Origin: Alphaproteobacteria bacterium
GTDB lineage: Bacteria; Pseudomonadota; Alphaproteobacteria; Sphingomonadales; Govanellaceae
NCBI GenBank assembly: GCA_003695065.1
Contig: RFJA01000288.1
Location: 1 to 34,281, forward strand
Length of the DNA stretch: 34,281 bases
Reading direction: 5' to 3'
A program made the translations under genes and the position numbers. The notes below the pieces were generated by a model. That model searched no databases. It had not been told where the DNA came from and saw only the letters and a list, made by a program, of their open reading frames with translations. This document shows positions 10,625-33,933 of this stretch, in pieces. Numbering within the stretch: position 1 is the stretch's first letter; each line of letters begins with the position of its first letter.

Positions 10625-12145
10625 ATGGCTCCAAGTGGTCTCTACGAAAAATATCGGCCAAGGATTTCTGAAGTCGCTCCCGCGATCATCAACGGCAAGA
10701 GGGAAGCGGCTTTATCGGACGAGCGGGTGTCTGTTATAAACCCCGCTGACGGCACGCAACTTCTTGAAATTGTCGAAGCCGATGAGGCGCAGGTCAATCA
10801 CGCGGTAGGTCGTGCCCGTGACGCATTTTTGCGGGGGAGCTGGTCACGTGCCCCGCTTCTTGAGCGGCAGGCCGTGCTCTCCCGGGCGGCGAACCTGGTG
10901 CGTGAAAATGCAGAGGAATTGGCCGTACTGGACACCATGACAACGGGCCTGACGTTTGCGGGTGCAACGCATGGCCAGGCCCAGGCGGCGGCGGGCTGGT
11001 TTGATTATTTCGCAGGCTTTCTTTTGAATATGGGCGACGATCTCTATCGTCAAATTCCCCATGTCCAGACCACCGTGACCCGGAACCCGGTCGGCGTGGC
11101 CGCTCTCTTTACGCCCTGGAATATTCCGCTGATGGGGGCGGCACTGAAGCTTGGGGCGGCCCTGTCCATGGGAAACAGCGCGGTGATCAAGCCGTCGGAA
11201 CAGAGCCCGCTTGGCACCATCCGTTTGGTCGAGCTGCTCCACGAGGCGGGCCTGCCCGAGGGGGTTCTCCAGCTTGTCAACGGGCGCGGTGCAGTGACCG
11301 GTGCGGCCCTTGCCGGGCATGCGGATGTGGACCTGATTTCCTTTACAGGCGGGGAAGGGGCCGGGCGCATTATCTCCCGCATGGCGGCGGAGCGGTTTGC
11401 CAAGATCACCATGGAACTGGGTGGCAAGTCGGCCAACATCATTTTCGATGACGCAGACTATGACCGCGCGCTTGATGGGGCGATCATGGCCATCTACGCC
11501 AATAACGGTGCAGCCTGCCTCGCCGGGTCGCGCATTCTTGTGCAGAACAGCATTGCCGATAAGTTCATCGCTGATTTTGCCGATCGGGCCAAGGCGATCG
11601 CAATCGGCGATCCGTTCGATCCGGCAACGGAACTGGGACCTCAGTCGTCGAAGGCGCATATGGATCGTGTCCTGTCGTTCAAGGACAAGGTCCGCGACGA
11701 GGGAGGGGAAATCATTCTCGACGGCGCGCGCGTTCCGACATTGGGCGAGGGGTTCTATATTTCCCCTACCGTTTCGGTCGCCATAAGTAATCGTAACGCC
11801 GTATGCCAGGAGGAAATCTTCGGGCCTTTCGCCACCTTTCTTACTTTCGAGACAGAAGAAGAAGCAGTTCAGATTGCCAACGACACGCGCTTTGGCCTTG
11901 CGGGCTATGTGTGGTCGGACAACCTGCAGCGGGCAATGAGGGTCGCGGACGCCTTGCGGACCGGTTACGTGCTGGTCAACAGTCCCATGGTCCGCGAACG
12001 CAACGCGCCGTTCGGGGGTTATGGACACTCTGGTATTGATCGGGAAGGCGGGCGCTGGAGTCTTGATTTCTATAGCGAGGCCAAGACCACCGTCATCCCC
12101 TTCCGGGACTTCGCGGTCCCGACCATGGGCAAATCAAAGGAATAG
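10625..12145 (+). CDS. NAD(P)-dependent aldehyde dehydrogenase
   Basis: TPWNIPLMGAALKLGAALSMGNSAVIKPSEQSP; MELGGKSANIIFDDAD; NNGAACLAGSRILV; QEEIFGPF. ATG at 10625 is preferred to TTG at 10616. Confidence 0.93.
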   Translation: MAPSGLYEKYRPRISEVAPAIINGKREAALSDERVSVINPADGTQLLEIVEADEAQVNHAVGRARDAFLRGSWSRAPLLERQAVLSRAANLVRENAEELAVLDTMTTGLTFAGATHGQAQAAAGWFDYFAGFLLNMGDDLYRQIPHVQTTVTRNPVGVAALFTPWNIPLMGAALKLGAALSMGNSAVIKPSEQSPLGTIRLVELLHEAGLPEGVLQLVNGRGAVTGAALAGHADVDLISFTGGEGAGRIISRMAAERFAKITMELGGKSANIIFDDADYDRALDGAIMAIYANNGAACLAGSRILVQNSIADKFIADFADRAKAIAIGDPFDPATELGPQSSKAHMDRVLSFKDKVRDEGGEIILDGARVPTLGEGFYISPTVSVAISNRNAVCQEEIFGPFATFLTFETEEEAVQIANDTRFGLAGYVWSDNLQRAMRVADALRTGYVLVNSPMVRERNAPFGGYGHSGIDREGGRWSLDFYSEAKTTVIPFRDFAVPTMGKSKE

Positions 12146-12148
12146 GAT

Positions 12149-12922
12149 ATGGGGGGTAACAGCAATATGGGGACACTTGACGGCAAGGTGGCTGTGGTCA
12201 CCGGGGCGGCCCAGGGGATCGGCGCGGAGCTTGCCCGCGGGCTAGCCGCCATGGGTGCGATGGTTGTGGTGTCTGACGTGCTTGACGGGGCGGCTGTTGC
12301 CGACGAGATAAAAGGTGCGGGCGGCAGTGCTATTTCGTTGGTTACAGATGTGACCAGCGCGGACTCGCTTACCAAAATGGTCGAAGCGACGATCGGGGCG
12401 TTTGGCGGGATCGACATTCTGGTAAACAACGCGGCGTTATTTGGCAAGCTGCCATTGGCACCCATGCAGGAAATCCAGGTTGAGGTCTGGGACCGGGTTA
12501 TGGAGGTCAACGTTCGCGGCGTTTGGCAGGCCAGCTGCGCTGTGCTTGATAGTATGAAGGCACGTGGGGGCGGGTCGATTGTCAACATCGCCACCAACCG
12601 GGTTTTTAAGGGGTTTCCCATGATGCTGCATTATGACGCGTCCAAGGGGGCCGTGGTTGCGATGACCAAGTCCATGGCGGTGGAGCTTGGCGACCTGAAT
12701 ATCCGCGTCAACGCCATCGCCCCCGGCCTGACAATGAGCGAGAACGTGCTTGCCAAGGACGGGATCGAGGATCGAAAGGGCGCGATTGCGGGCGCCCGCG
12801 CGCTCAAGCGTGACCAGCAGCCCGAGGATCTGGTGGGGGCCGTAGCTTTTCTGGCGAGCGACCAGAGCTCTTTCATGACGGGGCAGACGCTGGTTGTCGA
12901 TGGCGGCGGGATTATGCGGTGA
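12149..12922 (+). CDS. SDR family oxidoreductase
   Basis: GKVAVVTGAAQGIGAELARGLA; ILVNNAA; YDASKGAVVAMTKSMAVELG; SSFMTGQTLVVDGGG. Confidence 0.93.
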   Translation: MGGNSNMGTLDGKVAVVTGAAQGIGAELARGLAAMGAMVVVSDVLDGAAVADEIKGAGGSAISLVTDVTSADSLTKMVEATIGAFGGIDILVNNAALFGKLPLAPMQEIQVEVWDRVMEVNVRGVWQASCAVLDSMKARGGGSIVNIATNRVFKGFPMMLHYDASKGAVVAMTKSMAVELGDLNIRVNAIAPGLTMSENVLAKDGIEDRKGAIAGARALKRDQQPEDLVGAVAFLASDQSSFMTGQTLVVDGGGIMR

Positions 12923-14295
12923 CGGGTCCCGCCCCTTCCAGCATGCCTGTATCCACGAAGCTTGGATACGGGATAGGTATTTTCGGGCCCATGCTGGGTT
13001 GGGTCGCAGCGACCCAATACCTCATGTACTTTTATACGGATGTGGCGGGCATTGACCCGGCGCGCGCCGGGCTCATTTTCATGCTCGGCATGGTGTGGGA
13101 CGCCATCAGTGACCCGCTCATCGGCACCTTCGCCGACAAAACCCGGACCAGGTGGGGAAAATACCGTCCCTACCTGCTATTCGGTGCGGTGCCCTTCGCC
13201 CTATCTGTATTTCTGGTATTTACCCCCTACTGGGGCAGCGAGGCCGGCATATTCTGGTTCGCGCTCATTACCTGTCTGCTGTTCAGGACGGGGTATACTG
13301 TGGTTTACATGCCCTACACCGCGATGATTGCGCGAATGACAACCTCCTACGACGTGAGAACGAGTTTGACCGCGGTCAAAACCGCCTTCGTTTTTGCGGG
13401 GAACCTGGTGGTATCCTTCGGTTTTTACAGCCTCGTTCTTTTCTTTGGTGCGGGGTCAGAGGCCCGTGGCTTTCCGCTGGCAGCTCTGGTCATTGGTTTG
13501 TTCGGGGCCATTACAACCCTAATATGCTTTGCCCAGACCCGGGAGGCACCGGAGGACGGGGAAACGCCGGCGGGTCAGTTAGCAGCGGACAGACGGTCAA
13601 ATCTGAAGGCGCTGTTCCGCGTATTTGCGGACCTTGCCGGCAACAGGGCGTTCCTTCTGTTATTCTTCGGGGTGTGTCTGTTCGGCGGCTTCTACGGACT
13701 TGAATTGGCCATGACGGCCTATTTTGCTAAGTACTGGCTGGGCGACGCCGGACACACCCGAACGATCTTCACCGTTCAGGCCCTAACTTCGCTTGCGTCA
13801 ATTCCGCTCTGGCTCTGGCTGGCAAAGGTACATAGCAAGACGCTGGTCTGGGTATCGGGGATATTGCTGGCGACTTTTGGCCTGGTGCTGGTCTTTTTGC
13901 TGCGTCCCACAAGCGTTGAGGCGTTGAGCGCGCTTTATGCCGTGAAGAATGCTGGCGCTACCGGCTTCATCATGATTTTCTATGCCATGACCGCGGACAC
14001 AGTCGACTGGGGTGAATGGGTGCGGGGGCGGCGGCACGAAGGTGTTATCTTTGGCGCCATTTCCTTTGCGAACAAATTCTCGGCGGGGGTGGCAACGGGC
14101 GTCCTCGGCCTGACCTTGTCGCTGATCGGCTTCGTTGCAAACGAAAATCCTTCCGCCGGGGTAATTGACGGCATGTTCGTGGTGGGCACGCTCGTCCCGG
14201 CAATTGGGTTCTGTTTGGCCGCCCTATTAATGCGCTGGTATCCCGTGACCCGGGACAGACATGCACAATTGATCGCCGAAGTCGAAGCCCGTTAG
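12919..14295 (+). CDS. MFS transporter, glycoside-pentoside-hexuronide (GPH/MelB-like) family
   Basis: LMYFYTDVAGIDPARAGLIFMLGMVWDAISDPLIGTFADKTRTRWGKYRPYLLFGAVPFA; 4-nt overlap with the SDR gene. Confidence 0.88.
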   Translation: MTGPAPSSMPVSTKLGYGIGIFGPMLGWVAATQYLMYFYTDVAGIDPARAGLIFMLGMVWDAISDPLIGTFADKTRTRWGKYRPYLLFGAVPFALSVFLVFTPYWGSEAGIFWFALITCLLFRTGYTVVYMPYTAMIARMTTSYDVRTSLTAVKTAFVFAGNLVVSFGFYSLVLFFGAGSEARGFPLAALVIGLFGAITTLICFAQTREAPEDGETPAGQLAADRRSNLKALFRVFADLAGNRAFLLLFFGVCLFGGFYGLELAMTAYFAKYWLGDAGHTRTIFTVQALTSLASIPLWLWLAKVHSKTLVWVSGILLATFGLVLVFLLRPTSVEALSALYAVKNAGATGFIMIFYAMTADTVDWGEWVRGRRHEGVIFGAISFANKFSAGVATGVLGLTLSLIGFVANENPSAGVIDGMFVVGTLVPAIGFCLAALLMRWYPVTRDRHAQLIAEVEAR

Positions 14296-14560: not shown

Positions 14561-16912
14561 ATGGCGACAAAGACTCATCCATCAGTTAGAGCGAAAGGCA
14601 CCAAGGCATCGGTCCTTCTCGGGACAGCGCTGGTCAGCATTTCGTTTATGACGCCGGCACAGGCGCAATCCAAGTCCTTCATGGACGAGATCGTTGTGAC
14701 AGCGCAGAAGCGGGAGCAAGGCCTCCAGTCCGTGCCTCTTGCGGTGACCGCCGCCACGGGCGAGCAGCTGGAGATGCTGAATCTTACAGATGTTGGGGAC
14801 GTGGAGTTCTTCACCCCCGGACTCCTTTGGGGGGAAGGTGGCTCGTCGCAGTGGCCGACCATCCGCGGCGTCAATACGCCCGTGAACGAAAACATCGGTG
14901 ACCCGTCCGTCGCCTTCTTTATCAACGGGGTTTACAAGAGCCGCACCGGTCAGGCCCTGGCCACCATGGTGGATGTGGAGCGTATCGAAGTGCTGCGCGG
15001 CCCACAAGGCACCCTGTTCGGACGGAATGCCACGGCCGGGGCGATCAATGTTGTAAGCCGCAAGCCCACTGATGAGTTCGAGTACGGGGTTGACGGTACC
15101 TTCGGAAATTATTCCACCCTTGAAGCGCAGGGTTATGTGAACATTCCGATCACCGAAAAGTTTCAGCTTCGCCTTGCCGGGTCAGGCAAGTCCCGGGACG
15201 GCTATGTGAACAATATCGGGACGGGGCCGGATCTGAACGATGAGGATATCTTCTACGGCCGCCTTTCGGCCAGAATCCTGCCGTCCGAGAATGTGGAGGT
15301 GATTGCCCGTATTTCAGGCATGGACCGCGACCGGGCTGGCGGCGGCGCGTTCACCTACAAGGTGCTTGGCCAGATGTTTGATGTATCCCAGGGCCAGCGC
15401 AGCGTCTTTGGCGAGCCCGTATTCATCAACCCCCGGGTCAGAGATGGTATTGCGGATTTTGTAAATGGTGTAAATGTGGGTGACATCGGGGTGCCGGTGA
15501 ACCTTGACCCCTATGTGGTTGACACCAACTTCAAGAATACGGAACGGACCAAGTCCATTGACGCCGATCTGGAGATTACCGTCGATCTCGACGGTATGGA
15601 GTTGAAGTCCATTACTGCCTACTCGGACTTCAGTTCGCTGCCCACCAACGATAACGACTTTACCTCATTGTCCGACATCCTGAACCGTTCGAGCCTGCTC
15701 AGCCAGGACGCGGAAACATTCACACAGGAAATTCAGCTGTCGTCCAACGATGATGGTCCCCTTCAGTGGGTGGTCGGTGCGTTCTACCTGAACGACAAGA
15801 CGTTCGAGATCTTCAGTATCGACGATGAAAATGGCATTCAGGGGCCTTTCCCCAACCGGGACGGTGACCTGACGACCTTCGTCTTCAACCGTCAAACGGA
15901 TGTGGATACGGAGTCATGGGCCGTCTTTGGTCAGGCCACCTACAACCTCACCGAAGACTTCAGCATCACCGCCGGGGGCCGGTACACCGAAGACAAGAAG
16001 GACTTCAAACTTCGGGAGTTCGGCTGGCTTGGCTTCCTCGGTTTCAACCCGGACATCGACTCCAGTGAGACGTTCGACAAATTCACGTGGCGCCTTGGTG
16101 CCGAGTACCAGGTCGATGACGACTCGCTTCTTTATGCCTCGGTGGCAACAGGGTTCCGCTCAGGTGGTTTCAACCGGTTTGTCGACGCGGGCACGACAGA
16201 TGCCAATACCTTCGACAGCGAAACCATCCGGACCTACGAGGTCGGGAGCAAGAACTCGCTTCTGGATGGCCGCATGCGTCTAAACCTTGCGGCCTATTAC
16301 AGCAAGCTCAAGAACCAGCAGGTTGCTACCGTGATTTCCGTTGGCGGCACCGGTCAGTCCGGCTTTGATAACGCCGGTAAGTCCGAGATCTATGGTGCCG
16401 AGCTTGAGCTTCAGGCCCAGGTCACGGAAAACTGGTTTGCCCAGGGAACGATGGCCTATGTCCATTCCGAATATAAGGAGTACTTCGCGGCCGGTTTTGC
16501 CGGGGATGGTCTGGGTGATCCCAACGTCATCGATGCCGGTGGCAGCCCGGTTATCGACCTTGCAGGCAATACCACCGAGCGCTCGCCCGAGTTCCGCGCG
16601 ACGTTGCTGTCGGGGTATGACTTCCCGCTTGATAACGGTGGGATGCTGACGCCGCTGGTTGCCTTTACGTACACCAGCAGCTTCTATAACACCCAGTTCA
16701 ACACGCCGCTGTTGAAGCAGGACAGCTATACGAAAACCGATCTCCGGCTCGTCTACACATCGCCTGACGCCCGCTTCAAGATCGAAGGCTATGTGGAGAA
16801 CCTTGAAGATGAGGCTGTCATCAGCCGGGGGACCTATGGCGGGAGTAATGCGGCATTCGTATCCTATGCCGCGCCGCTGACCTACGGGCTGCGTATTCGT
16901 CTTCGTAATTGA
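14561..16912 (+). CDS. TonB-dependent outer membrane receptor
   Basis: Signal peptide ending AQAQ; TonB box DEIVVTAQKREQ; plug VERIEVLRGPQGTLFGRNATAGAINVVSRKP; C-terminal YGLRIRLRN. Confidence 0.95.
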   Translation: MATKTHPSVRAKGTKASVLLGTALVSISFMTPAQAQSKSFMDEIVVTAQKREQGLQSVPLAVTAATGEQLEMLNLTDVGDVEFFTPGLLWGEGGSSQWPTIRGVNTPVNENIGDPSVAFFINGVYKSRTGQALATMVDVERIEVLRGPQGTLFGRNATAGAINVVSRKPTDEFEYGVDGTFGNYSTLEAQGYVNIPITEKFQLRLAGSGKSRDGYVNNIGTGPDLNDEDIFYGRLSARILPSENVEVIARISGMDRDRAGGGAFTYKVLGQMFDVSQGQRSVFGEPVFINPRVRDGIADFVNGVNVGDIGVPVNLDPYVVDTNFKNTERTKSIDADLEITVDLDGMELKSITAYSDFSSLPTNDNDFTSLSDILNRSSLLSQDAETFTQEIQLSSNDDGPLQWVVGAFYLNDKTFEIFSIDDENGIQGPFPNRDGDLTTFVFNRQTDVDTESWAVFGQATYNLTEDFSITAGGRYTEDKKDFKLREFGWLGFLGFNPDIDSSETFDKFTWRLGAEYQVDDDSLLYASVATGFRSGGFNRFVDAGTTDANTFDSETIRTYEVGSKNSLLDGRMRLNLAAYYSKLKNQQVATVISVGGTGQSGFDNAGKSEIYGAELELQAQVTENWFAQGTMAYVHSEYKEYFAAGFAGDGLGDPNVIDAGGSPVIDLAGNTTERSPEFRATLLSGYDFPLDNGGMLTPLVAFTYTSSFYNTQFNTPLLKQDSYTKTDLRLVYTSPDARFKIEGYVENLEDEAVISRGTYGGSNAAFVSYAAPLTYGLRIRLRN

Positions 16913-19684: not shown

Positions 19685-19842
19685 GGGATTGCACCCCACT
19701 GCTCGAAACATCAAACCCTCACAATACGCTACCGGGAATGTCTTTACAAGAAAGCGAGCTTCACCGACGGGATCTATCTCTGTCTATCTTTGGGAAAGGG
19801 GCGGGGGATTGAGTTTCCGGACGCATTGTGGTTGTTTCTATC

Positions 19843-19854
19843 TTGTAAATACAA
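19843..19854. promoter_or_regulatory. Putative GntR/HutC operator (site G) TTGTAAATACAA
   Basis: Perfect TTGTA/TACAA arms between two divergent MFS genes. Confidence 0.7.
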
Positions 19855-19907
19855 TCTGAGGGGAGTGGACTGCTGCCCCTTCATTGCCACGAGGAGTTGG
19901 AGTAATC

Positions 19908-21337: not shown

Positions 21338-21351
21338 GTTGATAATACAAC
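21338..21351. promoter_or_regulatory. Putative degenerate operator (site H) GTTGATAATACAAC
   Basis: GTTG..CAAC arms, two mismatches to the core; upstream of the LigM-like gene. Confidence 0.45.
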
Positions 21352-21444
21352 TATGGGAGTCTCATCCGAGCAAATTGTCGGCTTTGCCCCTCAGGCGGGC
21401 GCAATGTTCGAATACGCGAAGAATTGATAAGGAGGTCTGTCCTG

Positions 21445-22815
21445 ATGTCTAGCCGGTCGCTTGAAGACAAGATCAAGGAAGTCGGGAATCCGGTCGATAT
21501 GCTGCGGAATGCGCAGATCGGGCCCTATGAATTCCCGATCAAGAGCGAATTCAGTAACTGGCGGGATGAGCAGGAGGCCTGGAACAAGACGGCGGTCCTT
21601 TTCGATCAGTCCTATCACATGACGGATCACTATATTGAAGGCCCGGATGTCAAGCGGCTGCTCAAGGACCTCGGGATCAACTCCTTCGAGACTTTCGGTC
21701 GCAACAAGGCCAAGCAATTGGTGGTTTGCAACTACGACGGTTACGTCATTGGCGACGCAATCCTGTTTGGCCTTGAAGAAGACAAGGTCAATATTGTCAA
21801 CCGTCCCGTGGCGGGGAACTGGGTCCAGTTCCATGCCGAGACGGGCGGCTATGATGTGAAGGTGGACAAGGATGACCGTGCCCTCGACAACACCGGCGTC
21901 CGCAAGGGTTACCGTTTCGAAGTTCAGGGCCCGAACGCCTGGGAAATCCTTGAGAAGGTGAACGGCGGCCCCATCGAAGGTTTCAAGTTCTTCGGTATGG
22001 GCGAAATCACCATCGCCGGGCGCAAGGTCCGGGCGCTTCGCCACGGCATGGCGGGTGCGGCGGGCCTCGAGCTTTTCGGCCCCTATGAGGAGCGCGAGGA
22101 CATCCGGGGTGCAATCCTCGAGGCGGGCCGGGACCTTGGCCTTCTCGAGGCCGGGTCCAAGACCTATTCAACGGTTGCCCACGAATCCGGGTGGATCCCG
22201 TCTCCGCTTCCGGCCATCTTTACCGGCGACAAGATGAAGGCGTTCAGGGAATGGCTGCCTGCCGACGGGTTCGAGGCCAATGGCTCGCTCGGTGGCAGCA
22301 TGGTAAGCGATAATGTTGAGGATTATTACCTGACGCCCTGGGATCTCGGTTACGGGCACATCCTGAAATTCGACCATGACTTCATCGGCCGCGAGGCGCT
22401 TGAGAAGATGAAGGACCAGCCCCACCGCAAGAAGATGACGCTGGTGTGGGAGCCCGAAGACGTGATCCGCATCTTTGCATCCCTGTTCAATGACGGCGAT
22501 CGCTTCAAGTTCATGGACATGCCGGCGTCCCACTATGCAACCTATCCCTACGATATGGTGGTCAAGGGTGACAGGCAGGTCGGGATTTCCTGCTATCCGG
22601 TCTACACCTCCAATTATCGGCGCTGGATTTCGCTCTGCATGCTGGACGAGAGCGTGGCCAATGTGGGTGACGAGCTTGAAATCGTCTGGGGTGAGCCCGG
22701 CGGTGGGTCCGACAAGCCCGTGGTCGAGCGTCACATCCAGACCCGGGTGCGGGCGAAGGTCACTGACTGCCCCATCTCGAAGACGGCGCGGGAAGTCTAT
22801 CGGAAAAATCCCTGA
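21445..22815 (+). CDS. Tetrahydrofolate-dependent O-demethylase, LigM/DesA-like (GcvT fold)
   Basis: NPVDMLRNAQIGPYEFPIKSEFSNWRDEQEAWNKTAVLFDQSYHM; YRFEVQGPNAWEILEKVNGG; RALRHGMAGAAGLELFGPYEERE; ESGWIPSPLPAIFTGDKMKAFREWLP; FDHDFIGREALEKM. Strong SD AAGGAGG. Confidence 0.85.
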   Translation: MSSRSLEDKIKEVGNPVDMLRNAQIGPYEFPIKSEFSNWRDEQEAWNKTAVLFDQSYHMTDHYIEGPDVKRLLKDLGINSFETFGRNKAKQLVVCNYDGYVIGDAILFGLEEDKVNIVNRPVAGNWVQFHAETGGYDVKVDKDDRALDNTGVRKGYRFEVQGPNAWEILEKVNGGPIEGFKFFGMGEITIAGRKVRALRHGMAGAAGLELFGPYEEREDIRGAILEAGRDLGLLEAGSKTYSTVAHESGWIPSPLPAIFTGDKMKAFREWLPADGFEANGSLGGSMVSDNVEDYYLTPWDLGYGHILKFDHDFIGREALEKMKDQPHRKKMTLVWEPEDVIRIFASLFNDGDRFKFMDMPASHYATYPYDMVVKGDRQVGISCYPVYTSNYRRWISLCMLDESVANVGDELEIVWGEPGGGSDKPVVERHIQTRVRAKVTDCPISKTAREVYRKNP

Positions 22816-22884: not shown

Positions 22885-23805
22885 GTGGCGGACACCATCA
22901 ATAGCGACGCGGCGCTTTCACGCCTGCTGACCGGATATTCGGCGGAAGTCACATCGCCGGACCGCAAGGCCATTGATGCAGCGGCGGATGTCATGCCTGA
23001 AGGCGCTCGGGTCTATATCGCGGCGCTCCCGAACAAACCGGTGGATGGTCAGGTGGAGGCGGCCTCAAGGCTGCGGGGCATCGGGCTTGAACCCGTTCCT
23101 CATCTGGTGGCGCGTAGTTTCGCAAGTCCCGAAGACCTCGACAGGCTTCTCGGGCAGCTCGTGGAGGGTGCGGCCATAGAGCGAGCGCTTGTTCTGGGTG
23201 GTGACCGGGATGATCCCGCAGGGAACATGACGTCCGCGCTGGATATCATCAGGACAGGGCTTTTAGAGGATCACGGTATCCGCCGTATCTCCATCGGGTG
23301 TTACCCTGAAGGCCATCCACGGATCAGCGATGAGGAGCTGCGTCGTGCTTTGCATGAAAAGCTGGAGGCGGCGGACAAGGCCGGGCTTGAAACGATCCTG
23401 GTCAGCCAGTTTTGTTTTGACCCCAATGCAATACTGAATTTTGTCCGGGATTTGCGGGCGGACGGTATCAATACGCCTATTCGCATCGGTGTGGCAGGCC
23501 CGGCCAAGGCTGCGACGCTGATCAAGTACGCCATGATATGCGGGGTCGGCCCGTCGCTTCGCGCACTGAAGGAACGGCAAAGTCTGGCCCGCAACCTGCT
23601 GGGTGCGGTCACGCCAGAGGACATTCTTCGTGATGTTGCCGTTGCGCGGGAGCGGGAGCCCGAGCTTAGGATCTGGGGGATTCACTTTTTCACGTTTGCG
23701 GCGCTCAGGAAATCCATCGAGTGGGCAGAAGAGCGGATTGACAGGTCAAAGGACCCGGATGCGGTCCCCGATGACGTTTTCGCTGAAAACTCCGAAAAGC
23801 CATAA
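22885..23805 (+). CDS. metF: Methylenetetrahydrofolate reductase family (MetF-like)
   Basis: GTG start; VYIAALP, LVLGGDRDDPAGN, ISIGCYPEGHP, ETILVSQFCFDPNAILNFVRDLRADGINTPIRIGVAGPA. Confidence 0.85.
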   Translation: MADTINSDAALSRLLTGYSAEVTSPDRKAIDAAADVMPEGARVYIAALPNKPVDGQVEAASRLRGIGLEPVPHLVARSFASPEDLDRLLGQLVEGAAIERALVLGGDRDDPAGNMTSALDIIRTGLLEDHGIRRISIGCYPEGHPRISDEELRRALHEKLEAADKAGLETILVSQFCFDPNAILNFVRDLRADGINTPIRIGVAGPAKAATLIKYAMICGVGPSLRALKERQSLARNLLGAVTPEDILRDVAVAREREPELRIWGIHFFTFAALRKSIEWAEERIDRSKDPDAVPDDVFAENSEKP

Positions 23806-24531: not shown

Positions 24532-25392
24532 ATGATCAATCCTTTGATCCTCACCCTGTCCTGCGATGACAAGCCAGGCATTGTCGCCGCGGTCACGACC
24601 CTTCTTCATGAGAACGGTGGCAACATCCTTGAGGCCCAGCAGTTCGACGATATGGAGACCGGGCGCTTCTTCATGCGTGTGATGTTCAACCTGTCTGACG
24701 AGGGCGGGTCTGCAGAGGAGGTGAGGGAGCAGTTCCACCGCCTTGCAGAAGAGTATGGTATGGACTGGAGAATTCGTGCCCGGAATGCGCGGAAACGCGT
24801 TTTGATGATGGTTTCAAAGTTCGATCACTGTCTTGGTGACCTGCTCTACAAGATGCGCATTGGGGAACTAAACATGGATGTTGTGGGGATCATCTCCAAT
24901 CATCCCAAGGATGCGTTGAACCTCACCACGTTCGGTGACATCCCTTATCATCATCTTCCGATCACGAAAGAAACCAAGCCTGAGCAGGAAGCCCAGGTCA
25001 AAAAGATCATCGAGGACACGGGCGCCGAACTGGTGGTGCTCGCCCGGTACATGCAGGTTCTGTCCGATGACATGTGCCGCTTTCTTGATGGCCGATGCGT
25101 CAACATTCATCACAGTTTCCTGCCCGGCTTCAAGGGCGCAAAACCCTATCACCAGGCGCATAGCCGGGGGGTAAAGATGATCGGTGCAACGGCTCATTTC
25201 GTGACCAGGGATCTTGATGAGGGTCCGATCATCGCCCAGGATGTGGAGCCCATAACCCATGCGGACTCGCCGGATGACCTTGTGCGAAAGGGCCGGGATA
25301 TAGAGCGCAGGGTACTCTCCCGGGCCGTGGCCCATATCCTGGAGGACAGGGTCCTGATGAACGGATCGAAGACGGTGGTTTTTGCAGGATGA
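24532..25392 (+). CDS. purU: Formyltetrahydrofolate deformylase
   Basis: N-terminal ACT domain (LTLSCDDKPGIVAAVTTLLHENGGNI) and hydrolase HHSFLPGFKGAKPYHQAHSRGVKMIGATAHFVTRDLDEGPIIAQDV. Confidence 0.93.
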   Translation: MINPLILTLSCDDKPGIVAAVTTLLHENGGNILEAQQFDDMETGRFFMRVMFNLSDEGGSAEEVREQFHRLAEEYGMDWRIRARNARKRVLMMVSKFDHCLGDLLYKMRIGELNMDVVGIISNHPKDALNLTTFGDIPYHHLPITKETKPEQEAQVKKIIEDTGAELVVLARYMQVLSDDMCRFLDGRCVNIHHSFLPGFKGAKPYHQAHSRGVKMIGATAHFVTRDLDEGPIIAQDVEPITHADSPDDLVRKGRDIERRVLSRAVAHILEDRVLMNGSKTVVFAG

Positions 25393-26264: not shown

Positions 26265-26278
26265 GTTGTATTTACAAC
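26265..26278. promoter_or_regulatory. Putative GntR/HutC operator (site I) GTTGTATTTACAAC
   Basis: Perfect 6-bp arms upstream of the FAD enzyme/AcnX operon. Confidence 0.72.
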
Positions 26279-26378: not shown

Positions 26379-27953
26379 ATGACGGACAAGTATGATGCGA
26401 TAATTGTTGGCGGCGGCCACAATGGATTGACATGTGGCGCCTATCTCTCGAAAGCGGGCCTCAAGACGCTTGTGATTGAACGCCGTGATATTCTGGGCGG
26501 GGCGGCCGTCACGGAAGAGTTTTCACCGGGCTTCAGCGCGTCGTCCTATTCCTTCATCATGGGGCACCTGCACCCCAAGGTGATCAAGGACCTTGAGCTT
26601 GAGAAGTTCGGCCTGAGCCGCGTGGTCGTTGATAACGTTATCAACCCGACCGAGGACGGTGACTGCATCGTCTTCTCCAAGGACCCGAAGAAGACGCAGG
26701 CCCAGATCGCACGCTTTTCCCAGAAGGATGCGGAGAATTACCCCAAGTTCTTCGCCTCCATGCAGAACGCCATCGACCTCTTGCGCCGCCTTCAGTTCGA
26801 AGTGCCGGTGGACCCGGTCAAGCGGGATATCAAGTCCCTGATCAAGGCCGGCAAGTTCGGCTGGAAATACCGGGATGTGAGCGACGAAATCTACGATATC
26901 ATCGACGGCCTCTCCTTGAGCGCGCACGATTATGTGGACCGCTGGTTCGAAACCCCGGTGGTCAAGGCGAAATTCATGTACTGGGCGACCATAGGCGGTA
27001 ACGTCGGCCCCTATTCGCCGGGCACCGCCTTCTACCTGATCGCTCACCTGATCGGTCAACTGGGCATGAGCTTCCCCATTGGCGGCATGGGCGCCATATC
27101 GAATGCCATTCACGCGTCCGGCAAAACGGCAGGTCTCGAGACGCGGGTCTCTGCCCCGGTGGAAAAAATCCTCGTTCGCGACGGGCGGGCCTATGGCGTG
27201 CGCCTTGAAAGTGGGGAGGAAATCCATGCCAGGTGCGTGGTCACCAACGTCAACGCCAAGATCGCGTTCGGCCAGATGGTGGACAAGGAACATCTGCCCG
27301 AAGAAATCGTTGGCAGGATCAGTCGCTATCGGACACGGGGCAAATCGTTCAAGATCCTTTGCGCGACGGACAGCCTGCCTGAGTACGCGTCCTTTAGCCA
27401 GGAAAAGACCGGGGTCGATTACCCCGCCTATGCCCATATCGGTCCCACGCCCGAATACCTGGAGCGGGCGTTCGACGATGCGAAATACGGCTGGTATTCC
27501 AAGAAGCCGTTCCTCTCGGCTATCGTGCCCACATATTATGACAAGACCCTCGCGCCCGAGGGCAAGCATGTGGTGTCGCTTTATGGCGGGGTCGCGCCTT
27601 TCGAACTTGAGGGCGGAAGCTGGGACAAGGAACGCAAGAACCTGGTCCGGAATGCCTTTGACGTCATGGACGAATACGCTCCCGGATTTTCGGATACGGT
27701 CCTCGACTATAAGCTGATCCTGCCCAAGGACATCGAAGAAGTGGTCAACATGCCGGGCGGCAATACGCTTCACGGTGAAATGACGCTGGATCAGTTGTTC
27801 TTCGGTCGTCCTGTTCCGGGCCTTGCCGATTATCGCAGCCCCATCACGGGCCTCTATCAGTGCGGTGCCTCAAGCCATCCGGGTGGTGCAGTGTCCGCCG
27901 TGCCGGGCCATAATGCGGCCCGCGAGATCCTGAAGGACTGGAAGCGGCTCTAG
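26379..27953 (+). CDS. FAD-dependent oxidoreductase, phytoene-desaturase/PYROXD2-like
   Basis: YDAIIVGGGHNGLTCGAYLSKAGLKTLVIERRDILGGAAVTEE; C-terminal GLYQCGASSHPGGAVSAVPGHNAAREIL. Confidence 0.9.
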   Translation: MTDKYDAIIVGGGHNGLTCGAYLSKAGLKTLVIERRDILGGAAVTEEFSPGFSASSYSFIMGHLHPKVIKDLELEKFGLSRVVVDNVINPTEDGDCIVFSKDPKKTQAQIARFSQKDAENYPKFFASMQNAIDLLRRLQFEVPVDPVKRDIKSLIKAGKFGWKYRDVSDEIYDIIDGLSLSAHDYVDRWFETPVVKAKFMYWATIGGNVGPYSPGTAFYLIAHLIGQLGMSFPIGGMGAISNAIHASGKTAGLETRVSAPVEKILVRDGRAYGVRLESGEEIHARCVVTNVNAKIAFGQMVDKEHLPEEIVGRISRYRTRGKSFKILCATDSLPEYASFSQEKTGVDYPAYAHIGPTPEYLERAFDDAKYGWYSKKPFLSAIVPTYYDKTLAPEGKHVVSLYGGVAPFELEGGSWDKERKNLVRNAFDVMDEYAPGFSDTVLDYKLILPKDIEEVVNMPGGNTLHGEMTLDQLFFGRPVPGLADYRSPITGLYQCGASSHPGGAVSAVPGHNAAREILKDWKRL

Positions 27954-27984
27954 GCCGCCCCCACATGAAGCGAAGGAGACTATA

Positions 27985-28176
27985 ATGGCGATTGTAAGAG
28001 TGATCATGCTTGAGGGCCGAAGCACCGAAATCAAGGCGCGGGTGATCAAGGGCATCACCGAGGTGATGAACCGGGAAGTGGATCCGGACCCGAGCCATGT
28101 GCGGGTCGTCATCGAGGAGGTCAAGCCCGAAAACTATGGTGTGGCCGGTCGCTACATCGGCCAGCCGGCTGACTGA
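27985..28176 (+). CDS. 4-oxalocrotonate tautomerase family protein with Ala replacing Pro-1
   Basis: MAIVRVIMLEGRSTEIKARVIKGITEVMNREVDPDPSHVRVVIEEVKPENYGVAGRYIGQ; AAGGAG SD upstream of the ATG. Confidence 0.88.
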   Translation: MAIVRVIMLEGRSTEIKARVIKGITEVMNREVDPDPSHVRVVIEEVKPENYGVAGRYIGQPAD

Positions 28177-28201
28177 TAACAACGGTTGAAGAGGTAAACA
28201 C

Positions 28202-29488
28202 ATGTTTCTCACCGACGAGGAAAAGGCGGTTCTGGACGGGAGCGAGGGCGAGGCCCGCGCCCACGCCATGGACCTGATGGTGCGCTATGCGAAGGCGTTA
28301 GGGGCCGAGCGGCTGGTCGAAACGAACAACGTGTGCGGCGGTGTAGTAGGCTCTCTGCCGGGCCGCCGGGATGTGCTTCCCGAGGACAAGCGCCACGACA
28401 TGAATGCGGTCTATTCGCTTTTGAATCTTGATAGCGACAAGACCCTCGACATCCCGCCGGTCAAGACCAATACCTACCGCCTGATCGAGGCCATGGACGC
28501 CGATCTTTATGACGTTCAGGGTGTCGGGGAGGAAACCCAGCGGCTCGTCCGGGAGACCACCGCATTCTGCCAGAAGAGCGGCTACCAGCTTTGTAACACC
28601 TGTACGCCCTACCAGGTGGGCAATGTGCCCTTGTTTGGTGAGCATTGCGCCTGGATGGAATCCTCGGCCGTCATTTACATCAATTCCCTGATTGGTGCGC
28701 GTTCCAATGTCGAGGGAGCGCACAGTACGGCAGCGGCTTCCCTGATCGGTAAAATTCCCTATTGGGGATACCACATCCCGGAAAATCGCCGGGGCACACA
28801 TCTGGTAGAGGTGGAGTACCCGATCGATAACATGCTCGACTGGGGGTTGATGGGGTATTACGTGGGCGAAAAGGTGCAGGAGAACGTGCCTGTCTTCACA
28901 GGCATTTCCGGTGTGCCCAACGCCAACAAGCTGAAGCATTTCGGCGCCTCCATGGCAAGCTCCGGCGGGGTCGAGATGTACCATATCGTCGGCGTGACCC
29001 CCGAGGCGCCAACCCGCGACGTGGCCTTTGGCGGTAACCGGGCACAAGAGACGATCAGGTTCGGGCGCGCCGAGCTGGAGGAGGCCTACAGCTGGTTCAG
29101 CACGGCCAAGGACACGGACGTTGATTTCGTCGTGCTCGGCTGTCCCCATGGCTCGCTTGAACAGGTCCGCCTTGTTGCCGGCCTCCTCGAAGGCAAGAGG
29201 CTCTCCGCCAATACCGACCTCTGGATGTTTATCCCGCGCTCCATAAAGGCGATCGCGGACCGAATGGGGTATACGGACACATTCCGCAAGGCGGGAGCCT
29301 ACCTGATGACCGACAGTTGTGCAGCACTCAGCAAGGTTTCTCCCAAAGATGTGAAGACGGCAGCTACCGACTCCTGTAAGCAGGCGCATTATCTGCCCGC
29401 CACCATGGGATTCGGCACTTGGCTTGGCAGCACGGAACAGTGTGTGAATGCGGCCATTAGCGGAAAATGGACGGGAGGTCTTGAGTGA
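28202..29488 (+). CDS. Aconitase X catalytic (large) subunit, DUF521-type
   Basis: CNTCTPYQVGNVPLFGEHCAWMESSAVIYINSLIGARSNVEG and VVLGCPHGSLEQV; followed by the swivel-domain gene. Confidence 0.9.
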   Translation: MFLTDEEKAVLDGSEGEARAHAMDLMVRYAKALGAERLVETNNVCGGVVGSLPGRRDVLPEDKRHDMNAVYSLLNLDSDKTLDIPPVKTNTYRLIEAMDADLYDVQGVGEETQRLVRETTAFCQKSGYQLCNTCTPYQVGNVPLFGEHCAWMESSAVIYINSLIGARSNVEGAHSTAAASLIGKIPYWGYHIPENRRGTHLVEVEYPIDNMLDWGLMGYYVGEKVQENVPVFTGISGVPNANKLKHFGASMASSGGVEMYHIVGVTPEAPTRDVAFGGNRAQETIRFGRAELEEAYSWFSTAKDTDVDFVVLGCPHGSLEQVRLVAGLLEGKRLSANTDLWMFIPRSIKAIADRMGYTDTFRKAGAYLMTDSCAALSKVSPKDVKTAATDSCKQAHYLPATMGFGTWLGSTEQCVNAAISGKWTGGLE

Positions 29489-29916
29489 CCGTAATCATTC
29501 TCAAGGGTCGCCCGGTCGTGGAAGGGGTTGCCGAGGGTGAAGCGCTTGTCACCCGACAGACCATCTCCGGCTTTGGCGGCATCAACAACCAGACAGGGGA
29601 AATAACTGAAGTCCGCCACGAACTCAGGGGCAAGTCCTTCAAGGGCAAGGTTCTCGTCTTTCCCGGCGCCAAGGGATCGTCCGGCTGGGCCAGTCATTTC
29701 CAGACCGTGCGGCTTGCCGGCGCCGCCCCCGCGGCGATGATCTTCAACATCACCACCACGAAGATGGCGCTGGGCGCGGTCGTGACGCGGGTGCCAGCCG
29801 TCACCGATTTGGATCAGGATCCCCTTGACGTGATCGAGACCGGTGACTGGGTCAAGGTGGATGGCAATACGGGCACGGTCACCATAACCAAGCCGGACAG
29901 GAAGGACGGGGCGTGA
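29485..29916 (+). CDS. Aconitase X swivel (small) subunit, DUF126-type
   Basis: LVTRQTISGFGGINNQTG...GKVLVFPGAKGSSGWASHFQTVRLAGAAPAAMIF; overlaps the large subunit by 4 nt. Confidence 0.9.
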   Translation: MTVIILKGRPVVEGVAEGEALVTRQTISGFGGINNQTGEITEVRHELRGKSFKGKVLVFPGAKGSSGWASHFQTVRLAGAAPAAMIFNITTTKMALGAVVTRVPAVTDLDQDPLDVIETGDWVKVDGNTGTVTITKPDRKDGA

Positions 29917-30737
29917 GAGTAGCTATAACGGTCGATGGACGGATCATCATCGAGCAGGGGGGCAGCCAGTTCGACGCAAGCGCGCTCGCCCGGAAGATAA
30001 AGCCCGTGTGGCCCGCCGAGCCCGGCGACCCGTTCATGCAGATCTGGGCCGATATCCGGGCATTGACGGACGACGAGATCGCGGCGCTGCCCCCGATCTC
30101 TGTTGACGGGTCCAAGCTCAGGAATCCCATCCGCTCCCCCAACAAGATACTCGGGGCCATGGCCAACTACACCGCGGCCGACGGCGCGATCCCCGAAACC
30201 TCGATCCGCAAGTATGGCTTTTTCGTCAAGGCGAACTCTGCCATCACGTCTCCGACGGAGGGGGTGGTGGTCCCTGCGGACATGCCCACCCTGCACGAGC
30301 CTGAACTCTCGCTGATTATCGGGCGGACGATCAGGTTCGCAAGCCATGACGAGGCCCGCGAGGCCATCGCCGCCGTCTGCGGGTCGCTCGACATGACGGG
30401 CAAGAGCAGCCACCTTTTCAGTCACCGCAAATCCCTGGACAGTTTCGCCGTGTTCGACTCATGGCTGACACCGATTGATGAGTTCAGTGCGCCCGAGGAC
30501 CTCCACGACCTCGGCATAAAGCTCTGGATCAATGAAGACTTGCGCCAGGACGGTAGCACCAATCGGCTGATCTGGAAGCCGATAGATCTGGTTGTGGAGG
30601 CGTCGCGCTATTTCACACTTTACCCCGGCGACATCATAATGTGTGGCACGCCGTCCGGCGTTGGGCCTGTGGAGCCCGGCGACCAGATCCGGGTTGAAAT
30701 CGAGCGGACGGCAGGTTTCAGTGTTCCGGTCCGGTGA
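29913..30737 (+). CDS. Fumarylacetoacetate hydrolase family protein
   Basis: LHEPELSLIIGRTIRFA, HRKSLDSFAVFDSWL, INEDLRQDGSTNRLIW, YPGDIIMCGTPSGVGPVEPGD. Confidence 0.88.
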   Translation: MRVAITVDGRIIIEQGGSQFDASALARKIKPVWPAEPGDPFMQIWADIRALTDDEIAALPPISVDGSKLRNPIRSPNKILGAMANYTAADGAIPETSIRKYGFFVKANSAITSPTEGVVVPADMPTLHEPELSLIIGRTIRFASHDEAREAIAAVCGSLDMTGKSSHLFSHRKSLDSFAVFDSWLTPIDEFSAPEDLHDLGIKLWINEDLRQDGSTNRLIWKPIDLVVEASRYFTLYPGDIIMCGTPSGVGPVEPGDQIRVEIERTAGFSVPVR

Positions 30738-30747
30738 GTAACGCGTA

Positions 30748-32142
30748 ATGGGCAAGGTGCAGGTGGCTGACGAGGACAGACTGACAGTTCGCCAGCGCGC
30801 GTCCTACGGGGTCGGGATCGGAGGGCTGTGGATGGTCTTCATGACCACGGCCTTCTACCTTCTCTATTTCTACACGGACGTGCTTGGCCTGTCCGGCAGC
30901 GAAGCCGGGCTCATTCTTCTGATCGCGACGCTCTGGGATGCGGTTACGGACCCGGCCATGGGATATCTGGTCAGCCGCACACGCAGCCGATGGGGGCAGT
31001 ACCGCCCGTACCTGATCTTTGGCGCTTTCCCGATGGCGGTCAGCTTCGTCGCCGTGTTTCTGCGTCCCGACTTCGTAGCCGGACAAATTTTCCTGTTCGC
31101 GCTCCTGACCCAGATTATTTTCAGGACCCTGTTCACGGTGGTCTATATTCCCTATACCGCGCTCATTTCACGCTTGTCGCGGGATGCGAACGAGCGCGCC
31201 TCCATTGCGAGCGTCAAGGCCTTCTTCGTCTCCGCCGGTGCCTTGACGGCGTCCTATTTCGGCCTCCCACTGGTGGCGGCGCTTGGGCAGGGGGATGATC
31301 TTCAGGGTTTCATTCTGACGGCCGGGATATTTGGCGGCGTCGCCACACTCACCCTGATGTTCACTGGCTTTACCGTCCGGGAGAAAGGGGCTGTTGGCAA
31401 GACCCGGGCGGAAGCCGCCGGGGAGGCCCTGTTCGAGGATACATCCTCCATAAAGGAAGCGCTCAGTGGCCTGTTCAGGAACCAGGCGTTCCTTCTCGTT
31501 TTCTTTGGCGTGATCATGTTCACGGGCTGCTACACGGTGCTGAACAAGACAAGCATCTATTTCTTCGAATATGACTATGGTGACCGCGGCGCGGTCCGCT
31601 ATCCGTTGACGGCCATATCCGTCGCCGGACTGGTCGCACCCTTCCTGTGGGCGAAGGTCACCCATATGACCAGCAAGCGCTTTGTCTGGGTCAGCGGCTG
31701 CCTTTTGGCGGCGGCCTGTCTGGTGACGTTCTACGCGCTCGGTTCGCAGAACCTGTCGCTGGTGTGGATCACGGCCATCTATTTCATGACCGGCGTCGGC
31801 ATTCAGGCCTTCCTGATGACGTTCTACGCGATGACGGCGGACGCCATTGATTACGGGGAATGGAAGACGGGACAAAGGGTAGAGGCTATGGGCTTTGGCC
31901 TTCTCTCTTTCGCCAGCAAGTCGTCGCTCGCACTGGGCGGTTTTGCCCTTGGCTTCCTGCTCGACGAGATCGGCTACGTTTCGAAGGCGGTCCAGAGTGA
32001 AGACGTTCTCGCCGATATCCGCCTTATCCTTGTTTTCTTCCCGACTGCCGGCTTCCTTTTGTCCGCGCTGATTATCAGCTTCTTCCCGGTGTCCACGCAA
32101 AAGCATCGGGAAATCATGAAGGAAATTCGGAACCGTAAGTGA
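30748..32142 (+). CDS. MFS transporter, GPH family (paralogue of 12919-14295)
   Basis: YLLYFYTDVLGLSGSEAGLILLIATLWDAVTDPAMGYLVSRTRSRWGQYRPYLIFGAFPMA. Confidence 0.88.
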   Translation: MGKVQVADEDRLTVRQRASYGVGIGGLWMVFMTTAFYLLYFYTDVLGLSGSEAGLILLIATLWDAVTDPAMGYLVSRTRSRWGQYRPYLIFGAFPMAVSFVAVFLRPDFVAGQIFLFALLTQIIFRTLFTVVYIPYTALISRLSRDANERASIASVKAFFVSAGALTASYFGLPLVAALGQGDDLQGFILTAGIFGGVATLTLMFTGFTVREKGAVGKTRAEAAGEALFEDTSSIKEALSGLFRNQAFLLVFFGVIMFTGCYTVLNKTSIYFFEYDYGDRGAVRYPLTAISVAGLVAPFLWAKVTHMTSKRFVWVSGCLLAAACLVTFYALGSQNLSLVWITAIYFMTGVGIQAFLMTFYAMTADAIDYGEWKTGQRVEAMGFGLLSFASKSSLALGGFALGFLLDEIGYVSKAVQSEDVLADIRLILVFFPTAGFLLSALIISFFPVSTQKHREIMKEIRNRK

Positions 32143-32238: not shown

Positions 32239-33816
32239 TCATTTCAGTTTGCTGTAATCCTTGAGAATCTCTCGTGCGGCATTGTGACCTGGTACGGCAG
32301 AGACCGATCCTCCTGGATGAGCCGAGGAGCCGCATTGGTAAAGCGACCGGATCGGGCTGCGATAATCTGCGTAGTGTGGTGCAGGACGCTTGAAAAATAG
32401 CTGGTCAAGGGCTACTTCCCCATGCAGTTCGTGGCCACCGGGCATGCCCAGAACATCCTCGAGATCGTGGGGCAGAAAGACTTTGTAGTCGATCAGGCTC
32501 TCGCTGAATCCTGGCGAGAATTCATCCATCACCGAAAAAACATTGGCGACGAAACGGTCACGTTCATCGTCCCAGCTTGCTCCTTTCAGTTCATAAGGGG
32601 CGTGTCCGCCCGATAGTGTGACCACGTGTTTGCCTTCGGGGGCAAGTGTGTTGTCAATGGCGCTTGGTGTGATCGGAGACACGAAGGGACGAGCCGAGTA
32701 CCAACCGTGTTTGGCGTCGTCATAGGCGCGTTCCATGAACTCGATTGTCGGGCCGATATGGGCATAAGCTGGATATTCCAACCCTGCTTGGCCGGGCGTG
32801 AAGCCGCGGTACTGCGGAAGCCGGTCGACGGCACAGTTGATCTTGTAAACCTCGCCCCGGCTTCGCCAGCGGTCTATATTGGCCATGAAGTCTTCAGGCA
32901 GTTCCGATCTGGGGACCAGGCGTCCAAATGAAACCGGAGCCGCGAGGTTGGACGCTACCAGTTTCGCATTGAATTCGCGCCCGTCCTCTGTCACCACACC
33001 AGTGGCACGTCCATTTTTAACAACGACTCTTTCGACGGCCGCATCGGTCAGGATTTCCATCCCGTATTTACGCCCGGCTGCGGCGATCGCATTCGACACG
33101 CTGCCCATTCCACCCTTGGCAAAACCCAGCCCATTTTCTCCCAGAAGGTGGAACAGGATAGAGTACGCGGTGCCTGCGGCACGCGGACCCCGGAAATTAC
33201 CGATGCCAGCCCAATAGCAGAACAGCGCCTTGACTTCCTCGCACTCGAACCAACGGGACACGAAATCATAGGCTGACTGGGTCATGGCATCGGTGATATT
33301 GTAAAACTCCTCACCCATGCCACGGTAACGCCAGGCCATGCGCGCCACATTCTTCAGCGCAGACCAACTGCGGTCACCGGGGTCGACGGGTGTTTCCAGT
33401 AGCATTCGTCGAAGCACCGAGATCGTTTGGGTGATGTCCTCGATAAATTTCGGATAGGCTTCGGCGTCTTTTTTCGAAAATCGCGCAATTTCAGTCTGAG
33501 TTGTCGATACATCGGTGGAGAAAACGATGCTATCGTCATTATCCAGCGGATGCAGCACCTCGCCCATTTTCAGATGGGTCAGGCCGAATTGCTCCAGCTG
33601 CAGCTCTCGGATCACCTTCGGGTGCACGTGGCCCATGATGTAGCTGAAGGTCGAGGCTCGGAAGCCGGGGTGGAATTCTTCGGTTACCGCGGCGCCACCG
33701 ACAATGTGGCGTCGCTCCAGCACCAGCGTCTTGAGGCCTGCCTTGGCCAGATAAGCTCCGCAGGTCAGTCCATTGTGGCCCCCGCCAACGATTATCGCAT
33801 CGTATTCATTCGTCAT
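32239..33816 (-). CDS. FAD-dependent oxidoreductase, phytoene-desaturase-like (paralogue of 26379-27953)
   Basis: YDAIIVGGGHNGLTCGAYLAKAGLKTLVLERRHIVGGAAVTEE...SLYQCGSSAHPGGSVSAVPGHNAAREIL. Confidence 0.9.
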   Translation of the reverse strand: MTNEYDAIIVGGGHNGLTCGAYLAKAGLKTLVLERRHIVGGAAVTEEFHPGFRASTFSYIMGHVHPKVIRELQLEQFGLTHLKMGEVLHPLDNDDSIVFSTDVSTTQTEIARFSKKDAEAYPKFIEDITQTISVLRRMLLETPVDPGDRSWSALKNVARMAWRYRGMGEEFYNITDAMTQSAYDFVSRWFECEEVKALFCYWAGIGNFRGPRAAGTAYSILFHLLGENGLGFAKGGMGSVSNAIAAAGRKYGMEILTDAAVERVVVKNGRATGVVTEDGREFNAKLVASNLAAPVSFGRLVPRSELPEDFMANIDRWRSRGEVYKINCAVDRLPQYRGFTPGQAGLEYPAYAHIGPTIEFMERAYDDAKHGWYSARPFVSPITPSAIDNTLAPEGKHVVTLSGGHAPYELKGASWDDERDRFVANVFSVMDEFSPGFSESLIDYKVFLPHDLEDVLGMPGGHELHGEVALDQLFFKRPAPHYADYRSPIRSLYQCGSSAHPGGSVSAVPGHNAAREILKDYSKLK

Positions 33817-33915: not shown

Positions 33916-33933
33916 AGGTTGTATATACAACCT
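33916..33933. promoter_or_regulatory. Putative GntR/HutC operator (site J) AGGTTGTATATACAACCT
   Basis: Perfect 18-bp palindrome upstream of the minus-strand FAD enzyme gene. Confidence 0.78.

Follow-up and report, generated by a model that had tools for sequence, protein, structure and literature searches.

The stretch of DNA analysed here (the window) is an entire contig of 34,281 nucleotides, from an alphaproteobacterial metagenome-assembled genome (MAG) that is 82% complete and whose order-mates are, among others, a Sphingomonadales MAG and Parasphingorhabdus marina; a gene cluster present on it may continue past the contig ends. Between positions 26379 and 32142 lie six plus-strand genes, for a CrtO/CrtI-like flavin adenine dinucleotide (FAD) oxidoreductase, a 4-oxalocrotonate tautomerase-like protein, the large and small subunits of an aconitase X (AcnX), an FAH-family hydrolase and a GPH-family symporter (Table 1), with successive spacings of +31, +25, -4, -4 and +10 nucleotides. 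The original prediction had described six same-strand genes with gaps of 10-31 nucleotides and 4-nucleotide overlaps, with which both coordinates and Pfam matches agree, behind a perfect operator at 26265; for the latter, perfection holds for the 6-base-pair arms and not for the centre, which is asymmetric. The operon is one of several units under a common operator, and so part of a larger whole than first described.

Genome contigs scanned with an alignment built from four close AcnX proteins yielded 80 loci, six of which (L042, L043, L044, L045, L046 and L106, with L044 being P. marina DSM 22363) have a gene set in common with the window. Recurring in these six other genomes are a LigM-like O-demethylase (69-77% identical to that of the window), a CrtO-like FAD enzyme (67-71%), a tautomerase starting with alanine in place of proline (40-67%), both AcnX subunits, an aldehyde dehydrogenase, a short-chain alcohol dehydrogenase, a HutC-like GntR regulator, a BNR propeller (47-65%) and an oxalomesaconate module. 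An isochorismatase-family hydrolase (74-79%), a RidA-like protein, MetF and PurU are further common members, and, the stretches of related genomes being samples, individual members do not all fall in each. The bearers are Sphingomonadales, Hyphomonadaceae, Rhodobacteraceae-assigned and betaproteobacterial genomes. At the presence threshold of 45% identity, no pathway gene other than AcnX was found in any of the 74 loci that make up the sister AcnX clade, and the AcnX relatives in plasmid records are remote only, all at less than 60% identity.

To judge from these comparisons, what is kept is the gene set rather than the gene order. Conserved synteny of FAD enzyme, tautomerase, AcnX and FAH-family hydrolase, together with the GPH transporter, had been taken as the defining unit, and of this the gene set survives and the unit as such does not: order is variable, the FAH-family gene is private to the window, being in 0/6 related clusters, and their GPH genes are no more than 38-46% identical to the window's. 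The true companions of AcnX are the LigM-like demethylase, MetF/PurU, the aldehyde and short-chain alcohol dehydrogenases, the propeller and its small partner, the HutC-like regulator and, elsewhere, a bicupin, found in all six related genomes and not found in the window genome. The earlier linking of AcnX to an oxalomesaconate module and an O-demethylase is upheld by a common operator and by co-occurrence in the seven genomes.

Operator counts cover the window and the P. marina and L046 stretches. With up to two mismatches allowed, the pattern GTTGTANNTACAAC has eight sites in the window against 0.36 expected, a number reached in none of 100 shuffles, and perfect copies of GTTGTANNTACAAC stand at 3232, 26265 and 33918. 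In P. marina the operator is upstream of the demethylase, GntR/small-partner, ALDH-SDR-AcnX-FAD (ALDH and SDR being the aldehyde and short-chain alcohol dehydrogenases), tautomerase/GPH and HisD/SSS units, and in L046 it is upstream of AcnX and of LigK. The protein presumed to bind it is the HutC-like GntR regulator, homologues of which (37-58% identity) occur in four of these six clusters; with 212.8 bits against the HutC model TIGR02018 it is slightly below the cut-off of 220, a likeness at family level.

Table 1. Genes and operator-like sites of the window, with the six-gene operon first
Feature	Position	Strand	Basis
Operator GTTGTA-TT-TACAAC of the six-gene operon	26265..26278		Pattern search
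CrtO/CrtI-like FAD oxidoreductase	26379..27953	+	NF045689 283 bits, far under cut-off 1000; 67-71% homologues in four clusters
4-Oxalocrotonate tautomerase-like, Ala-1 for Pro-1	27985..28176	+	PF01361 2e-14
AcnX large subunit	28202..29488	+	PF04412 E 1e-115
AcnX swivel (small) subunit, catalytic Ser65	29485..29916	+	PF01989 2e-23
FAH-family hydrolase	29913..30737	+	PF01557 6e-35; nearest solved relative maleylpyruvate hydrolase 6jvv
GPH-family (MelB-like) symporter	30748..32142	+	PF13347 2e-83; TIGR00792 326 bits, cut-off 231
Second CrtO-like FAD oxidoreductase, 57% identical to first	32239..33816	-	Sequence comparison
Perfect operator GTTGTA-TA-TACAAC upstream of second FAD gene	33918..33931		Pattern search
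Operator-like site, 2 mismatches, upstream of O-demethylase gene	21338..21351		Pattern search
Tetrahydrofolate-dependent O-demethylase, LigM/DesA family	21424..22815	+	NF047885 LigM 591 bits, cut-off 580
MetF-like methylenetetrahydrofolate reductase	22885..23805	+	TIGR00676 1e-11; homologues beside demethylase in L043, L044
Formyltetrahydrofolate deformylase (PurU)	24532..25392	+	TIGR00655 345 bits, cut-off 286
Aldehyde dehydrogenase	10616..12145	+	HpaE-like 484 bits, below cut-off; 59-61% homologues near AcnX in L042, L044
Short-chain alcohol dehydrogenase	12149..12922	+	59-64% homologues in L042, L044; 58% in L106
4-Oxalomesaconate tautomerase (LigU/GalD, PrpF family)	6015..7190	-	NF033377 504 bits, cut-off 440
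4-Oxalomesaconate hydratase (LigJ), start likely a few codons downstream	7169..8218	+	583 bits to solved LigJ 6dwv
4-Carboxy-4-hydroxy-2-oxoadipate (CHA) aldolase LigK	8215..8892	+	TIGR02798 364 bits, cut-off 304.5
DUF1932 / 6-phosphogluconate dehydrogenase-like, true start downstream of listed TTG	5146..6162	-	PF09130 7e-18
GntR/UTRA (HutC-like) regulator	683..1405	-	PF07702 1.9e-30, PF00392 1.1e-17
Operator-like site, 2 mismatches, upstream of 1561-2109	1494..1507		Pattern search
Small protein, partner of BNR propeller gene	1561..2109	+	No Pfam match
Cytoplasmic BNR-type beta-propeller protein	2117..3193	+	PF15902/PF02012; 47-65% homologues in all six related clusters
Perfect operator GTTGTA-GT-TACAAC upstream of Rieske gene	3232..3245		Pattern search
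Rieske oxygenase, VanA-like C-terminal domain	3309..4460	+	PF19112 6e-39, PF00355 5e-19; 54-55% homologue in G445 cluster
Isochorismatase-family (RutB/biuret hydrolase-like) hydrolase	4457..5140	+	PF00857 2e-38; 74-79% homologues in three related clusters
Second GPH-family transporter	12919..14295	+	38% identical to 30748-32142
TonB-dependent receptor	14561..16912	+	31-37% homologues in three related clusters
Operator-like site, 2 mismatches, upstream of MFS gene (19884-21149)	19842..19855		Pattern search

Both domains of the AcnX superfamily, the catalytic PF04412 and the swivel PF01989, are present, in the two-subunit layout of type II AcnX, which includes the type IIb mevalonate 5-phosphate dehydratase (PMC8184944) and with which the catalytic Ser, Glu, Ser, Lys and Tyr and the three [4Fe-4S] cysteines are also shared. 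Glu153, Ser154, Lys393 and Tyr397 of the large subunit are invariant in the seven core sequences (those of the window and the six related loci) and in the 74 sister ones, Ser65 of the small subunit is kept in the seven core and 73 sister sequences, and Cys134, Cys314 and Cys373, which match the cluster cysteines 110, 283 and 342 of the type IIb enzyme TkAcnX, are likewise invariant. The differences from type II are a clade of its own, two core-only features and neighbours from a different pathway. In a quick tree the seven core AcnX form that clade (approximate likelihood ratio test, SH-aLRT, 99), with a broad bacterial clade as its sister, and a long, fully supported branch sets the two apart from AtAcnX (type I) and TkAcnX. 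The first core-only feature is Phe30, at the position of AtAcnX Trp35, in 7/7 core AcnX versus Trp in 73/73 sister AcnX, and the second is an LP(G/N)RR loop, unseen in the sister-clade sequences displayed. Bacterial AcnX subclasses IIc-IIf, without the landmark residues of either known activity, are awaiting characterisation (PMC8184944).

At family level the window AcnX is matched best by the model for cis-3-hydroxy-L-proline dehydratase (219 bits against a cut-off of 700) and by TkAcnX (207 bits), and this is what would favour one of the two known activities, on cis-3-hydroxy-L-proline or on mevalonate 5-phosphate, in an unexpected setting. Such an identity is very improbable, given the separate clade, annotated neighbours without any gene for hydroxyproline or mevalonate (as originally noted) and the replacement of the AtAcnX substrate contacts Asp203, Thr72 and Ile206 by Gly47, Gly67 and Gly50 and of its Asn233 by Leu94, none of the cis-3-hydroxyproline-specific contacts tested being kept. 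For the phosphate loop of TkAcnX (48-53, Asn79), Tk residues 44-81 are unaligned, and the window loop differs from that of type I in both length and sequence. A position outside the characterised dehydratases of both kinds, which the proposed family-tree check has now given, together with the replaced contacts, argues for the earlier expectation of a different substrate.

The sister AcnX clade (L047-L121 minus L106; 52-58% identity), with members in Burkholderia, Bradyrhizobium, Neorhizobium, Pseudomonas, Alicyclobacillus and others, has an FAD-dependent oxidoreductase as neighbour in 50 loci, an IlvD/Edd-like dehydratase in 38 and a TauD-like dioxygenase in 13, and looks to serve another, likewise uncharacterised, pathway.

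The tautomerase-like protein starts Met-Ala, and not Met-Pro, in the window and all six related genomes, and so the loss of Pro-1 to which attention was first drawn in the window alone is conserved. Fold family and length are those of the 4-oxalocrotonate tautomerase group, with the difference that Ala-1 stands for the catalytic Pro-1 in all seven; in the superfamily at large 346 members are without Pro-1, only 13 of which, none of them characterised, are in the 4-oxalocrotonate tautomerase subgroup (PMC5818174). The free N-terminal amine of the alanine could act as a base or imine-former. The first FAD enzyme scores well below the cut-offs of both curated models (CrtO, 283 versus 1000; CrtI, 108 versus 238), and in L042 the two CrtO-like paralogues are adjacent. 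A genome of the same order has, inside 10 kb (L038, 9496-17808), a remote AcnX (32%) together with two CrtO-like FAD paralogues (36% and 32%).

The O-demethylase, with 69-77% homologues in four clusters, scores 505 bits to solved LigM (5x1i) and 619 bits to the DesA model, for which the cut-off is 800. On a residue mapping that assumes a three-residue tag in 5x1i, and with the LigM active site taken by us to consist, in roles and numbering, of Tyr29, Tyr31, Gln57, His60, Arg122 and Tyr247, the five demethylases examined keep Tyr29, Gln57, His60 and Tyr247, have Phe for Tyr31 (5/5) and, in all except L106, where it is Lys, keep Arg122. Association of a LigM-family demethylase with MetF- and PurU-type genes is as in the tetrahydrofolate-dependent LigM/DesA system of Sphingobium SYK-6, from which the window differs in a demethylase that scores between LigM and DesA, in the Tyr31 to Phe change and in its HutC-like regulator, those of SYK-6 being the MarR/IclR regulators DesR and DesX (PMC12314914).

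All three enzymes of the lower pathway of gallate/protocatechuate 4,5-cleavage (LigU/GalD, LigJ/GalB and LigK/GalC; PMC12314914) are encoded in the window. The LigK family is represented in 7/7 genomes (five above cut-off and two as partial matches), the oxalomesaconate tautomerase is above cut-off in five of the seven, and LigJ is in the window and five of the six related genomes; the P. marina LigU, LigK and LigJ genes are ~22-27 kb from its AcnX gene. Homologues of the DUF1932 protein (40-47%) adjoin LigJ in L146, L150 and L153. Unlike in gallate/protocatechuate cleavage, AcnX and CrtO-like enzymes are here joined to the module, and there is no LigB-family dioxygenase in P. marina (3.5 Mb and 100% complete, the completeness being from record G778, which has the propeller gene at identical coordinates) nor in three other genomes. 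The single LigB-family gene of the window genome, at its 82% completeness, is HpaD-like and beside a homoprotocatechuate-type aldehyde dehydrogenase. Oxalomesaconate in these genomes is therefore unlikely to come from the known 4,5-cleavage. A separate homoprotocatechuate-type cluster, with HpaD-like dioxygenase, aldehyde dehydrogenase, isomerase-like and FAH-family genes, is seen in L123 (G000:C95).

This distribution bears on whether an ordinary lignin-type methoxyaromatic pathway, leading from syringyl or vanillyl alcohol to the acid and on through O-demethylation and ring cleavage to oxalomesaconate, is at hand, to which AcnX and the FAD enzyme would be accessory. The LigM-family demethylase with MetF/PurU, the VanA-like Rieske oxygenase, the two dehydrogenases and LigU/J/K are indeed the parts of lignin-aromatic breakdown. 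Yet, apart from the dioxygenase that P. marina lacks and that the window genome has only in HpaD-like form, an aromatic substrate would offer AcnX nothing to dehydrate, and AcnX is in every cluster and clade-specific, which makes such a pathway rather unlikely.

Another possibility is that AcnX is a hydro-lyase at the level of oxalomesaconate and CHA, acting on a citrate-like, ring-opened tertiary hydroxy-acid and not on a ring compound. CHA is a homologue of citrate, aconitase-type enzymes act on citrate-like acids, the LP(G/N)RR loop of the core clade could bind an extra carboxylate, and LigK is in all seven genomes; with LigJ, however, nearly all of these genomes already have a dedicated hydratase, and a hydro-lyase at that level is rather improbable.

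Variation of gene order between genomes, the presence of the oxalomesaconate genes of G442 and G446 on contigs other than that of AcnX, and the weakness of the operators of these genes would all suit two or more unrelated neighbouring pathways, the AcnX/FAD operon belonging to one and O-demethylation with the oxalomesaconate module to another. Strong common operators, however, tie together the demethylase, propeller, AcnX, FAD, aldehyde dehydrogenase and transporter genes in two lineages, and the same set is found in each of the groups of bearers named above; unrelatedness is accordingly quite unlikely.

The reading favoured, to which a probability of roughly 0.6 is given, is that most of the 34-kb contig is filled by a conserved and apparently undescribed catabolic regulon, of which the six-gene operon is one transcription unit, and which handles an O-methylated C7 ring substrate by way of AcnX dehydration and entry at oxalomesaconate/CHA. 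More than 20 genes under one regulator appear to demethylate, oxidise and dismantle a ring compound, probably of algal or plant origin. Its skeleton would be a six-carbon ring plus a one-carbon hydroxymethyl arm, the latter being oxidised from CH2OH to COOH by the short-chain alcohol and aldehyde dehydrogenases, with the methyl group, that of an enol ether or phenol ether, passed by the LigM-like enzyme to tetrahydrofolate, for the recycling of which MetF and PurU would serve, and with the ring, or else an amine substituent, oxidised by the FAD enzymes. In AcnX the small subunit would supply Ser65 as the base, and Cys134/314/373 of the large one would hold a [4Fe-4S] cluster acting as Lewis acid; the enzyme would take off a hydroxyl at the position alpha or beta to a carboxylate, before or after ring opening. 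Once the ring is open its carbons would reach 4-oxalomesaconate and CHA, and LigU, LigJ and LigK would take them to pyruvate and oxaloacetate. A hydroxylated carboxylate from a hydroaromatic or aromatic ring, as first proposed for AcnX, is still the best reading of its substrate.

Several points weigh on the other side. The substrate is inferred, the ring-opening step is without an assigned enzyme, the window genome is an incomplete MAG, and the AcnX tree, besides being quick, has only two characterised reference enzymes. LigB-family genes are present in G442 and G446, so that the oxalomesaconate module of these two may serve protocatechuate cleavage. The genes of the module bear weak operator matches, with 2-3 mismatches, in both the window and P. 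marina, and therefore their membership of the regulon rests mainly on linkage and distribution.

As to substrate class, hydroaromatics of the mycosporine/4-deoxygadusol type, which are natural sunscreens, fit best, though as a tentative suggestion and, on balance, a doubtful one; if correct, this would be the first genetic pathway for bacterial use of such sunscreens. The mycosporine core, 4-deoxygadusol, combines in one six-membered ring a methoxy enol ether with a tertiary hydroxyl and a CH2OH group. The LigM-like enzyme would then remove the enol-ether methyl and AcnX the tertiary hydroxyl, with no classical ring-cleaving dioxygenase being needed. Oxidation of CH2OH, demethylation and opening between adjacent oxidised carbons would convert 4-deoxygadusol, carbon for carbon, to the CHA skeleton, and dehydration would give that of oxalomesaconate or gallate. 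Mycosporines have nitrogen substituents, for which the RidA-like, isochorismatase-like and amine-oxidase-fold proteins would be suitable. Bacteria are reported to convert shinorine and porphyra-334 as far as mycosporine-glycine and 4-deoxygadusol, and no further (PMC3083659); a literature search on the catabolism of mycosporines, mycosporine-like amino acids and gadusol found no pathway and no catabolic genes.

Should the favoured reading be true, an uncharacterised bacterial AcnX clade would gain a function, a conserved tautomerase without Pro-1 would be placed in a testable pathway, and there would be an added route to oxalomesaconate, one that does not begin with ring cleavage by a dioxygenase of LigB type. 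A mycosporine as substrate would, moreover, link abundant aquatic ultraviolet-screening compounds to bacterial carbon turnover. With P. marina DSM 22363 a culture-collection isolate has nearly the entire set, which makes the question directly testable.

Among the other genes of the window are those for the propeller and its small partner. Homologues of the partner are fast-evolving and beside the propeller gene in L042, L043, L044 and L045, and the structure predicted for it is too uncertain to be of use (pLDDT 32). For the propeller the AlphaFold pLDDT is 86, and a fold search gives generic BNR propellers only, the best being 3b7f, a putative glycosyl hydrolase. An apparent fusion of the two in L151 was rejected, the upstream frame being wrong. 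Since remoter propeller homologues (33-57%) have other genes around them and not the core AcnX set, the propeller alone is no marker of the pathway. In another genus (L193-L195) propeller and small partner (55-57%) have GST and MetE-like genes as neighbours but no core AcnX, which points to a second pathway employing the pair. In Sphingomonadales-order genomes a 33% propeller homologue is conserved between an aldehyde dehydrogenase and a thiamine pyrophosphate-dependent enzyme, with genes for an aminotransferase and a hydratase-like protein close by (L171-L173).

The bicupin was considered as a ring-opening type III extradiol dioxygenase, which is doubtful, its first motif being HxHxxxE and the His of its second motif being Arg; a bicupin without the second-motif His accompanies SnoaL-like, MetE-like and SSS transporter genes in several of the core genomes (L174, L043, L147 and L151). 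A GMC-family oxidoreductase gene on the minus strand of the window is split over two open reading frames, 8899-10146 and 10180-10503, with the N-terminal FAD motif in the second, which suggests a frameshift or an assembly error. Several loci of the sister clade, L058, L059, L064 and L074 among them, likewise have GMC genes close to AcnX.

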